From Isoetes taiwanensis (Eukaryota; Streptophyta; Lycopodiopsida; Isoetales; Isoetaceae), in contig JAJEKV010000034.1 of NCBI GenBank assembly GCA_021234155.1, forward strand, positions 2,666,001 to 2,730,000: DNA of 64,000 nt. Reading direction: 5' to 3'. The notes beneath the pieces were generated by a model, which searched no databases, was not told where the DNA came from, and saw only the letters and a program-made list of their open reading frames with translations. A program made the position numbers and the translations under genes. Positions 2,553 through 22,604 of the stretch are shown one piece after another (the stretch's first letter is position 1; each line of letters opens with the position of its first letter).

Positions 2553-2699
2553 CACTTGCTGTCTACTAGGATCTAATCTAGCAACTTGCTTACTCCAAAC
2601 ACTAGCACTCACTAGAGCTTGAGAAAGTCTGTCCTGGCGTTACCCAGGCCCATCCCACTGATCCTGGTATTATTACAATTTTTCTTGTTCTAAACTAGA

Positions 2700-2885
2700 A
2701 CACAACACTTAAACATTTAGGCTACCTAGTAGAGGGCTGATTTCTCAAGCCCCAAAACTATGTGTCCTTAATGAAAAACATTGCAAAGAGATTCTTAAGC
2801 ATAACTCAACACTTAACATTTAGGGATGTTTAGTCGAGGGCTGATTTCTCAAGCCCCAAAACTATGCATCCTTAATGAAAAGTAG
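2700..2885. repeat. 104-bp internal tandem duplication in unit A
   Basis: The phrase gagggctgatttctcaagcc occurs at about 2732 and again at about 2836, each followed by ccaaaactatg and ccttaatgaaaa. The same pair is present in units B and C, so this duplication predates the amplification of the 4.11-kb unit. Confidence 0.85.
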
Positions 2886-3393
2886 TTACGACAAAATCTA
2901 AAGCATAGGTACAAAGTAGAGAGAGTAAATTGCAAAGTAGACTTTTCTTTGAAAGTGTATAGTTAAAACAATAACTTGTAAAACGTATATCATACGGTTA
3001 CATTTTTTTTCCGTAGTTCCATAACCTTCCACGCTAACGCCAACCCCCGGTAGCAAAAAGCGAGACAATTGGAGGAGAGAACCAGGTACTGTGACCAATC
3101 ATGCAAAAGCGTTAGCGATAATCCCGGTAGCGATGCAAGGGCCAAAAGGTACATTGGGTCTCTCAGTTTATCACTGATCACCAATTGTATCCTTTTGCCC
3201 GAGCAGACAATAACAAGAAAGAAATATGGAATTATAATTTGAGATCCACACAAATCCAAAAAACAGTAAAAGGATTTGCTGCTTAATAATCAAATTTGTA
3301 AATTTTATGCACTACAAGAAATTTATCGCGGCGGCCAAGGCCGCCGCGAACATTTCTCTTATTCAAACTGTGCAATTGGACCCCAGTTAACGT

Positions 3394-3723
3394 CTAACAT
3401 TTTCTTCTGCAATAGCCAAGTGATTCTGGATTGATTTGAAGCAACTTTGTAGGAAATCCTTTGAGAAGAGAATGTTCCATCATCTGTTGATTTGTTGTTT
3501 TCTCAAATTCCTCAAGCTGCTTTAAGAAACCCCTAGGATCTTTGAAACTAGTAGAAATATCAACAAGAAAATTCTTAATATTTTGACAAAGAATTGTGAT
3601 AATATCTTCATAGCAGGCCTCTTTTCTTCCCAAGCTAATTAAAAGGTCAGAGGTATCTTCAACTGAACATGTATTGTCGAAATTGGCAACAAACACAAAA
3701 TTCTTTGGATGCACAATTTCCAA
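3394..3723 (-). CDS. Hypothetical 109-residue frame inside the unit A insertion
   Basis: A minus-strand open frame beginning MEIVHPKNFVFVANFDN, with ordinary mixed composition, an acidic/Asp-Thr segment near residues 17-26, and a Lys/Glu-rich C-terminal half ending CRRKC. It lies wholly inside the insertion missing from units B and C, so it could be a captured exon or part of a transposon. I recognise no domain, signal peptide or membrane segment, and no splice context was confirmed. It is the best-composed frame in the first 15 kb, but chance remains a serious alternative. Confidence 0.2.
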   Translation of the reverse strand: MEIVHPKNFVFVANFDNTCSVEDTSDLLISLGRKEACYEDIITILCQNIKNFLVDISTSFKDPRGFLKQLEEFEKTTNQQMMEHSLLKGFPTKLLQINPESLGYCRRKC

Positions 3724-4490
3724 GTAGCAATGATGAAATTAAGGGCTCAAATCTAACAAGAACTCTTGATATTGTATTGTCAAGGATTAGAAATTCACTA
3801 GTTCTGAAATGTCTTTGGCTGTAAGAAGACGAGTACTGTAGGCTGGGCTGAGTCGAATGAGTTAATAATGGAGTCGCCTCTTCTATTTATACAGAAACAA
3901 GTATTCTTTTCGAAGCCAGGCCTTTCGGCTGCATAAATATCTAGATTAGAAGGTGATCAGAGAAGAAAAAGTTGAATCTTGCTATGAATTGGCAAATCGG
4001 CCTCTGATATACAGAAATCGGCAGATATTTAGGCTTCCGGGATGATCTGCTTCGTCTGATAACGGATGTGGGGCGATAGTGGATTAGCCTATCCACCACA
4101 ATTATTTTTTCAGAATGAACAGAATGATTGGCTGGCTATGGCTATGGCGGAGGTTAAGCTTGGTATTACAAAAGTAAGAAGAATTGTTAAGGATTTGCTT
4201 GAATTACATTAATGGTAAATTCGATGAAAGCAAATGGGGCCGTAACCAAGCTTTTGAAGCTCCCTTTTATCTAGCCATGGTCGCCATGGTTAAAGCCGTC
4301 TATTGTCTTTGTCTTTTCCGAATTTAGAATGAGCCTAACCTACCCAATTCATTCTGGCGATTATTCCACACTGCGTTTTTGGGCATGAGCGATGATCTAG
4401 AGTGCCGACCTTTGATTAAGTTTCAATCTGAAAACTACCTTTGATTAAGCTTGGCCGGAATAGGTTTGGGTAGATTTTCTGAAGATAGGT

Positions 4491-19560: not shown

Positions 19561-19673
19561 GTTCCTATAGGAACACATAGGTTGCGGGATGGGTCCCTAT
19601 TTACATAGGGACCTCTCCTGTTCCCTATGTACTAAAAACAGGGGCCCTACCTCGCTTCCCGGAAGGAGGTAGG
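19561..19673. other. Cluster of hairpins at the end of unit D
   Basis: Three inverted repeats in 113 bp: a perfect 14-bp palindrome GTTCCTATAGGAAC (19561-19574); gtccctat/atagggac arms with a 4-base spacer (19593-19612); and CCTACCTCgCTTCC facing GGAAGGAGGTAGG (19646-19673). The last is followed by ctaaaattttt and the TA junction to unit E. It could be the structured end of a small transposon. No terminator role is claimed. Confidence 0.6.
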
Positions 19674-19683
19674 CTAAAATTTT

Positions 19684-19712
19684 TATATATATATAAATAT
19701 ATACATATATAT
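19684..19712. repeat. TA-rich junction between unit D and unit E
   Basis: The tract tatatataaatatatacat is identical to the right half of the C/D junction at 15.58-15.60 kb. It marks the restart of the D-E unit. Confidence 0.9.
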
Positions 19713-22604
19713 CCAAAGGTTGGCACAGGCTTCTGTCTACTACTTATAATGTTTGGCAGAAACTCTAAAAGCGAGGTTAACTGGGACATTTCGTTCATGA
19801 CCTGCTAAACTTTGGAAGGGTACACCTAGAAGACAACCAATAGTTAACATTTTTCCATATGGATAAGGCACAAGCTTGAACATGCAAAAGTGGCATGACA
19901 ACATCACTTAAATAAGGTAAGACATTTCTTATTTCTTATTTCATATTGATATATGACAAGCCATATGTAGCATTTAATGGGAACATTCTCGTAAGGGAAA
20001 GTTTTTCTTGTATACTTTTTCAACATAAAGAATTGGAAGTGCATGCATGTGGCCACTTGGCATTTTTATGATATGCATGCTTTGATGTGTAATTGCGTGA
20101 GGCAAACGACCATATTTGAAGCATCCTCTTTCAATGCCTAACCGTTTTAAGACAATTGCTGTGACTATTGGACCGTTTCATTCATGCATGCCCCTTTTCT
20201 ATCTAATACAAGGCATGTTTGCCACTTGTTGATAATTTAAATTGCATGCATAGCCTTGTATTTGGAATTTTACTTGACATTATTTTGGCTTTGGTGGAGC
20301 TACGTTTGCTAAGTTTTGCATATCTTACCATGGACCATGGAATAGTTACACTATGGTTTAGACAAAGATCTATCAAGAATATATGGCATGGGCCTTTTCG
20401 GTGCAGTTATACCATTAGCATTTAATATTTTGTACACCGTGGAAATACACAAGGGTGTCTTTGCACGTTCGAGCCATAGCTCTAGGGTTCATATGCTTGA
20501 AGCCGAAAGTGTGGTCTGTCTTGTACTTCGTTTACGAGGCCATAGCCTTGGGGTTCATACGCTTCAAACGGAAATGGAGGCAATGGTGCGGTACCTTATG
20601 TCCTTTTTAAAATACATAATGAATCCAAAGATATGGGCAAAGTGGCGGATAGCACGAGATTGTGCCTCACGATACTGCAATATAAAGATAAGTCTTTATT
20701 TCAAAGCATTCAGCAGTTTTCATAGAGTTTTCCCTCATTATAGTCTGGTAAAATAAATGATGCAAAGACAGGAACCTAAAAAGGTCAATGATTCTCCGGA
20801 TAACTTAGAAATCGTAGATGATGAGACATGGGCTTTATAAGTTTGGAAGCTAAAGCGGGTTGGACCTTAGCATTGATGACAATACTTGGTGCTTGGTTCA
20901 AAAGTTGCCAGAATATAAAGGCAATAAGACTGCATCCAACAACCTGTCGATGAATCTGTCATATGCATATTCTGTATTTATGCCCTTGAAATGATCTGTA
21001 GGGTTGGTTCCTTTCATAAATACATGGTATTATACCACCCATGTCCCAAAGATGATCACTCGCCTTATCTAGCATCCGGTGCTTTTGCTCTTTCAAAGGG
21101 AAAATTTTGTATCCGCGCCTTGAAAAGATTTTTTCCTTGTAACTCCACAATACGCTATCGAGCTTGCAACTCCACATTTGGCGATGAGCTTGCAATATTA
21201 CTGTTCTTGGAAAGGCCAATGCGCCTACAAACCCAGAAGCTAGGAGCAACATCAACTTTGCACATGGAAGACGAATTTCTTGAAGAGGACAACCACTCAA
21301 TCAGGTTTTTTCTACTGAACTAGTTTTTTTAAGAACAGTCTAATGCATACAACTAAATGGTGGGTACTGGCAGTATGCATGCATTGAAACATTCTTGTAT
21401 TGTTCAGATTTTTCATTCTTCTAACTAACCATGGTAGCAGCTATGGTGCAAGACCATGGACAACATGATTAACCCATAATACTGGCCATAGCAGGAAGTA
21501 TTTTCTGTCCTTGTTCGCACTTTGTTTCTATGTTGTGAAACTATAATAATCCATGAAAGCTCTAATACTTTTTCTTGAAATAGTTCAATGATCAGTTTAA
21601 TGTGGATCAAGGCTACATGTTCAACCTTATTATTTTTTAACAACATTTGTTTGATTTTATTATGGTATCTATTACATATTTTCTAGGTTGAAGGGCTATA
21701 AGCCATAAGATTCTTTTGCTTACACCGCTAATCCCTTTCTTGATTACCCGGTCATGGCTAATGCTTGAATGGTTGGATTGCGGTACTTAGGAATCTCATC
21801 TACCTACTCTCACGTTCGTGGTTGCATGAAGCGCTCAGAGCAGCGTATCACTTGCAAAGATCTTGGTTCCATAATGTTTTGACAGCTAAAAAGGATGTGA
21901 AATTCCATAAGCAGAATATCATCTTAAAAGTATCCGGGTTCTATCTTTCTCATTGGTAGAAATATTAGCGATTTTTTCTTTTATCATTGCCTTGCCATGC
22001 ATATCTATTTTTCTCGGCTTTAAATCTTGATGTGGCAAGCTATCGTACTGTCTATAAATACTTTGTTTAAGAATCATATAAATGGAAAAGATTTTCTTTT
22101 GGATAAATAGACTTGTATTTAAGAAAATGGTTTGAAAATGATGTAATTAACCAGACTATAGACTATGGATGATATAATCACTGCTGAAATCAATGGGAAC
22201 GGTACTTGTGCATTACATATGATCATCATTAAATGAAAAATTCCTTTTTACATGCCTTTTGAAGTCTAAATATCTGTTGGCACGTTAGGCTCTAAAGCAT
22301 ACTGGGCATTAATATGATTGAAATCAATTGGAAAAGGCACGTACATGACTTTGTAACATCTCTATGGTGGTAATACTATCTACATGTATCGTTTAAGCCT
22401 TGTAAACTTGAATGCACACTTGACTGGGTTATTGTATAAATCAGACTTACGGAGTAATGAGCTGATTGCTTGTAGATCCGCAGTTTGCAGTATTGCCTAT
22501 AAGGTCTCCCTTTATACTAATGGGAGCGATAAGTCTAGCCAGGTAATGGATATCCTTGCCTGGTTAGATGTCTGGGCTTGGTCCTTGGATCAAGTCTAGG
22601 CTTT
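19713..22604. repeat. Tandem unit E, truncated (2.9 kb)
   Basis: Matches unit D from 15603 to about 18,514 and then breaks inside ctttgtatata, where D continues with ttctgagatttcg. The coding-like fragments of D recur with small indels, mostly at CAG/CTG sites: D has ctggaaat where E has cggaaat, and D has gtgcaggtacc where E has gtgcggtacc. E therefore lacks the 18.6-19.7 kb part of the unit. Confidence 0.92.

Follow-up and report, generated by a model that had tools for sequence, protein, structure and literature searches.

The window analysed here, a 64-kb stretch of plant DNA from an assembly that closely matches, and presumably is, Isoetes taiwanensis v1, carries a block of tandem repeats at 2545-22612 whose copies differ preferentially at the trinucleotides CAG and CTG (jointly CWG, W being A or T). 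These differences are very probably uncorrected nanopore miscalls at 5-methylcytosine (5mC) in CWG. Miscalling is the best explanation given the changes found in 5S ribosomal RNA (rRNA) genes of the same genome, the match to an assembly built from R9.4.1 nanopore reads, the presence of a chromomethylase-like gene, and documented nanopore errors at methylated CCWGG motifs. The kind of artefact is already known; its scale is large, and it is unusually legible here.

The block consists of two families of tandem copies, A/B/C and D/E, with (TA)n arrays as borders and an identity of 95-98% among copies. The A/B/C period is about 4.11 kb; D/E is another unit, also with a period of about 4.11 kb. Unit A carries an extra stretch of about 1.5 kb, which interrupts it from 3319 to about 4829.

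Enrichment of CWG among copy differences

The differences between copies were compared with their CAG/CTG sites by a circular-shift test, in which the mask of differences is shifted round each copy, keeping the clustering of the differences, for 5000 shifts. The results are presented in Table 1. The enrichment is directional: CWG is there in B and D, and lost in A and E. The controls CAA/TTG and CTA/TAG showed no significant enrichment in any copy comparison (lowest value, 998/5000) and fell under chance in B vs A and D vs E. The control GAC/GTC lay a little over chance in those two comparisons (439/5000 in D vs E) and was mildly enriched in B vs C (133/5000).

Table 1. CAG/CTG sites of the first-named copy touched by differences from the second, with the result of the circular-shift test
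Comparison	Sites touched	Shift mean	Shifts as high
B vs A	30/94	7.0	0/5000
D vs E	27/76	4.6	1/5000
B vs C	9/66	2.8	15/5000
A vs B	11/76	5.6	107/5000
C vs B	6/63	2.6	251/5000
E vs D	1/50	3.0	4780/5000

With random placement of the difference clusters as the reference, CAG/CTG is present at 29/70 clusters in B vs A (6.1 expected) and at 24/35 in D vs E (4.2 expected). Clusters in TA arrays (four in A/B, two in B/C, one in A/C and one in D/E) were removed before the cluster counts. An earlier, sequence-only reading of this DNA had proposed that the copies differ mainly at CAG/CTG. This is true of D/E, where CWG is in exactly one copy at 25/36 clusters, and of about half of the A/B clusters (32/69, plus 3 with CWG in both copies); it is not true of B/C (9/32, plus 1 with both). 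All eight strings quoted in that reading were found, at 7068, 7096 and 7454 (A), 11182, 11208 and 11568 (B), 16515 (D) and 20623 (E), and strings of B recur in C at 15294 and 15320 with the same letters. Its expectation that an alignment tabulated by trinucleotide context would show CWG enrichment was borne out by B vs A and D vs E (Table 1). Over the repeat copies of the window, CWG is broken at 77/423 sites (18.2%), in comparison with 5.3% overall.

Words that replace CWG

The forms that stand in for CWG were examined in the clusters with CWG in exactly one copy. The CWG-lacking form has gained a CG in 18/32 of these clusters in A/B, 14/25 in D/E, 14/28 in A/C and 6/9 in B/C, and has lost one in 0, 2, 0 and 0, respectively. 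Written on the CAG strand, the recurrent changes are CAGA to CGA, CAGT to CGAT, CAGC to CAAAG, and CAGG to CGG or CGGG; they occur from both strands, amid varied one-off forms. Two or more edits are needed in 23/32 A/B and 17/25 D/E clusters, and the length change is not divisible by three in 17/32 and 17/25. A single CpG transition suffices in 5/32 (A/B), 2/25 (D/E), 3/28 (A/C) and 2/9 (B/C). The claim that decay of methylated C is not the pattern stands for most clusters and may fail for a minority: a change of CGG to CAG is possible, and two to five sites per comparison could be CpG decay.

A more heavily garbled pair of copies, X and Y, lies elsewhere in the window (Table 2). Their alignment presents 71% identity, 503 mismatches and 388 gap events, together with 19 identical runs of at least 20 bp, the expectation for independent columns being 1.5; one run is 111 bp long. 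CAG/CTG is the most broken trinucleotide of this pair (133/175), and the shift test yielded 71/85 sites touched against a mean of 47.3 (0/5000 shifts as high) and, in the other direction, 72/90 against 49.4 (1/5000). The identical blocks of at least 16 bp contain 3 CAG/CTG against an expectation of 15.6. This ratio is the lowest among the 32 trinucleotide classes, and the blocks have a GC content of 0.35, vs 0.47 in the rest. Sequence free of CWG tends to agree between X and Y, and CWG-bearing sequence tends to be garbled.

5S rRNA genes as a truth set

Arrays of 5S rRNA genes from two stretches of this genome provided 42 alignments of at least 80 bp, shorter ones being dropped. Only 7/42 copies are letter-perfect, the reference copy included. 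The string CATCAGAAC is intact in 16/42 copies and read as CATCGAAC in 22/42, which is the CAGA to CGA change of the window. Similarly, AGTACTGGGA is intact in 10/42 copies and read as AATCTTTGGGA in 13 and as AATCTTGGGA in 9, while ATACCAGCGC is intact in 18/38 copies and GGTGCTGCAC in 24/36. Errors per position amount to 121/480 for CWG, 77/246 for other CG, 116/900 for CCG and 241/2915 for the rest.

The true 5S sequence rests here on the seven letter-perfect copies and on a plant 5S sequence that carries the same CATCAGAAC. Plants strongly conserve the CATCAGAAC stretch, and the garbled copies are therefore misread unless the array is mostly pseudogenes.

Clean and garbled states are distributed in patches. 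Over seven sites, in the 34/42 copies that have all of them (copies without any one site were dropped), the state switches 31 times, in comparison with 94.7 times in shuffles (0/2000 as low). Clean and garbled copies adjoin in one array, and boundaries between states fall inside the 120-bp gene. This is the pattern that partial short-read polishing would be expected to leave, and it suggests that polishing probably matters besides methylation.

CWG content of the window and of the genome

CAG/CTG is the most depleted trinucleotide of the window, with an observed/expected ratio (O/E) of 0.77, varying from 0.37 at 24-28 kb to 1.05-1.08 at 40-48 kb. Of twenty 10-kb loci fetched from the genome (1,658,258,908 bp in 1110 contigs), 17 were usable, L017, L021 and L022 being all or mostly N and therefore dropped. 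Their CWG O/E ranges from 0.44 to 1.06 (0.79 pooled). The 5S arrays have a ratio of 0.31; five loci that match DNA methyltransferases give 1.02, with 0.98-1.07 for the single loci.

The correlation of CWG with CpG content is -0.64 over the 17 sampled loci, -0.33 over their 85 2-kb pieces and +0.25 (p 0.16) over 2-kb bins of the window; GGA correlates with CpG more strongly (-0.40) than CAG does (-0.33) over the 85 pieces. With CAA and CTA content, the correlations are coupled by the way they are constructed. Given that the signs differ and that GGA is stronger than CAG, composition was dropped as a stand-alone test.

The same bias is present where the A-C unit and the insertion recur elsewhere in the genome; these copies were compared with the window in alignments of at least 250 bp and at least 88% identity. 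The twelve resulting rows are partly redundant (L002 and L013 are the same place, both counted; L003 and L008 are each set against several window copies). In these rows CWG is broken at 102/592 sites, vs 2091/25347 overall, and at the 102 broken sites the partner form has gained a CG in 42 cases, lost one in 0 and kept the same number in 60.

Assembly method and methyltransferase genes

The assembly passages of the Isoetes taiwanensis v1 paper describe R9.4.1 nanopore reads, Guppy 3.1 flip-flop basecalling, miniasm, racon and pilon, as well as LR_Gapcloser run twice, the two rounds being separated by a pilon step, and give a size of 1658.30 Mb in 204 scaffolds and 909 contigs (1113 in total).

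The genome encodes a chromomethylase-like enzyme at L035. Its best solved relatives are 9mvy, 7ubu and 4fsx (about 6e-33), the next group following at 3e-13; 4fsx, named DNA (cytosine-5)-methyltransferase 1 in the structure table, is the maize chromomethylase ZMET2. The methylase domain is above its Pfam cut-off; on split exons, the chromo domain (24.7 bits, cut-off 25.1) and the BAH domain (19.2 bits, cut-off 30.8) both fall short. Chromomethylases serve the CWG context by preference. Further methyltransferase genes of the genome are DNMT1/MET1-like, DRM-like and weakly DNMT3-like. The DNMT3-like stretch, L036 (G000:C1061:58501-62000), has weak PDB matches (best E 4e-4); DNMT3-like genes are kept in non-seed plants, and one would agree with a lycophyte.

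Proposed mechanism and alternative explanations

According to the miscalling explanation, the copies would be nearly identical in the plant itself. Native DNA would have been read on R9.4.1 nanopores with a basecaller lacking training on 5mC outside CpG, and the shifted current at 5'-mCAG-3' or 5'-mCTG-3' would have been called as other short words. A CG in the wrong word would be expected if the network had learnt 5mC mainly from CpG. The common miscalls would be CAGA to CGA, CAGT to CGAT, CAGC to CAAAG and CAGG to CGG, with their reverse complements on the other strand. Miscalls common to most reads would outlast long-read polishing; short-read polishing would have mended some copies and patches, while stretches with few mapped short reads would have stayed wrong, perhaps including late long-read fills. 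The species identity, the training of the basecaller, the methylation of these sites and the choice of polished patches are what we infer in this account.

Several observations weigh against it. Neither copy has CWG at 34/69 A/B clusters and 22/32 B/C clusters. In the repeat copies, 16-29% of CG-containing triplets are broken, a rate similar to that of CWG or higher, much of which comes from their being the words that replace CWG; in the genome copies, four CG-containing classes are broken more than CWG (18-24%). CG positions outside CHG (H being A, C or T) are at least as error-rich as CWG in the 5S copies, and the 5S sites reproduce the forms of the window partially, CAGA to CGA well and the others variably. 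Depletion of CWG is ambiguous by itself, since it would also result from real decay of methylated CHG, and a CWG-poor stretch common to A, B and C (O/E 0.31, 0.24 and 0.34 at 6000-7000, 10000-11000 and 14000-15000, respectively), with few differences among the copies, may be such real decay. Moreover, a search for a nanopore-only Dcm control at Escherichia coli rpoBC found no error-rich assembly among the 60 of 5370 matches listed (all of at least 98.9% identity, with rpoB and rpoC annotated).

The alternative that survives best is miscalling at CWG from base context alone, without methylation, the clean copies being the polished ones. Polishing by itself could separate the clean and garbled 5S copies that adjoin and switch mid-gene, unique gene loci would be polished too, and the error-rich CG positions outside CHG also suit this view, as does the fact that methylation enters our own explanation by inference. 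We consider it improbable nonetheless, given that the damage prefers CWG, the context of chromomethylases, and that the genome holds a gene resembling them. In addition, the results of Wick et al. 2019 (PMC6591954) show default models failing at Dcm-methylated CCWGG and Dcm-rich training nearly abolishing these errors.

Real differences left by a mutator aimed at methylated CHG, in the form of short indels and substitutions, would likewise show CWG specificity and strand symmetry. This is very unlikely: similar forms fill tandem 5S genes beside letter-perfect copies, with switches within one gene; the ratio of 388 gap events to 503 mismatches in X/Y, along with long identical runs, is unlike mutation; and the method of the matched assembly predicts an artefact. 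Ordinary decay of methylated CpG between old copies (CGG to CAG, CCG to CTG), to which the single CpG transitions and the breakage of CG-containing triplets lend something, is least credible of all and was rejected as a whole explanation, given that single transitions occur in just two to five clusters per comparison, that most clusters need at least two edits, that length changes not divisible by three are frequent, and that such decay cannot yield CAAAG or CGAT, nor remove one A in 5S rRNA.

Miscalling at methylated CWG, which the sequence-only reading had suggested, is thus supported, with the methylation itself presumed. The further suggestion that the error map doubles as a methylation map holds less well. 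The map is not clean, given that the 5S state switches within a 120-bp gene, and it is one-sided at best: polishing seems patchy, and a clean patch need not be unmethylated.

Other features of the window

The coordinates of the features are presented in Table 2. The two tandem repeats (2545-15560 and 15574-22612) adjoin and have nearly equal periods of about 4110 bp; apart from TA runs and matches of 14 bases, no similarity was detected between the A/B/C and D/E units. The first part of the A/B/C unit is present at many places of the genome (C264, C974, C1034, C1040, C1060, C1069), several occurrences being locally clustered at intervals that range between about 3 kb and tens of kb. The insertion of unit A (3319-4829) starts near CACTACAAGAAA, which resembles a CACTA-type transposon end; no obvious inverted end matching CACTACAAGAAA was found at the other end of the insertion. 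A minisatellite-like array at 555-1700 is built of degenerate AGATTCC units, and many of its periods overlap. A scan of the window with Rfam returned nothing at gathering score, a comparison of the D unit with plasmids gave zero matches, and 20 of the 171 open frames of at least 70 amino acids, which bear on the proposal of the sequence-only reading that many frameshifts in the window may be artefacts, had no credible match when compared with Pfam (one hit was far under its cut-off).

Table 2. Features of the repeat block and of the X/Y pair
Feature	Position	Strand	Remarks
(TA)n array	2402..2552	.	Left border of the repeat block
Repeat unit A	2545..8165	+	Interrupted by insertion 3319-~4829; holds most CWG-lacking (probably miscalled) forms of the A/B pair
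Insertion of ~1.5 kb	3319..4829	.	Unit A only; similar stretches elsewhere in the genome: C1053, C916, C1047, C1037
Repeat unit B	8166..12278	+	CWG mostly intact; 30/94 CWG sites touched by differences vs A
Repeat unit C	12279..15560	+	Partial, mixed state
Repeat unit D	15574..19683	+	CWG-intact; 27/76 compared CWG sites differ in E
Repeat unit E	19684..22612	+	Partial, probably miscalled copy; 1/50 compared CWG sites differs in D
(TA)n array	22606..22723	.	Right border
Repeat copy X	50834..54771	+	Heavily garbled
Repeat copy Y	55380..59393	+	Heavily garbled; CAG/CTG O/E 0.19 inside blocks of at least 16 bp identical to X

Implications

If the miscalling explanation is true, much of the copy variation in this DNA is technical in origin and hints at the methylated positions, and in the unpolished parts of this assembly neither estimates of repeat divergence and transposon age nor pseudogene calls and statistics of short motifs are reliable. 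The X/Y pair (50.8-59.4 kb) is an example, its apparent identity being 71% despite long identical blocks. Other plant assemblies from native R9-era nanopore reads would presumably face the same trap. A diagnostic that needs the assembly only can be suggested: depletion of CAG/CTG together with differences between copies in which CG is gained, the 5S rRNA genes serving as an internal truth set.

The interest lies in the scale and in a possible by-product methylome of a lycophyte. On balance we lean towards the miscalls being usable in this way, i.e., as signs of widespread CWG methylation of repeats and 5S rDNA in one lycophyte, Isoetes taiwanensis, where a table from context to miscall could map the methylation and find damaged stretches. 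No paper on an Isoetes methylome was found by title or abstract start, in a search whose spellings left accented e outside. In the portions available of the literature on nanopore reads, PMC8188678 and PMC10473749 included, no paper was found stating CHG errors in plants directly.

Comparison with known systems

The closest precedent is the miscalling of Dcm CCWGG motifs in Enterobacteriaceae. According to Wick et al. 2019 (PMC6591954), about 70% of the consensus errors in one Klebsiella pneumoniae genome fell in Dcm CCAGG/CCTGG with the then-current default nanopore basecallers, and almost no Dcm errors remained once a basecaller had been custom-trained on data with abundant Dcm methylation. 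PMC8495745 concerns the detection of CCWGG methylation, not error forms. As far as that description of the Dcm case goes, it would share with the present one a CWG core bearing 5mC, the use of native DNA and R9.4 pores, and a default basecaller. In both, errors persist in the consensus and are concentrated in the motif, which is presumably methylated here. Unlike the Dcm case, any CWG is concerned here, in a plant genome, with patchy repair and locally much higher damage.

The second comparison is with plant CHG methylation by chromomethylases. The CWG-specific damage, the normal CWG content of the five gene loci and the chromomethylase-like gene are all alike to what such a system would give. 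The difference is that methylation is here read off from errors and is confounded by polishing.

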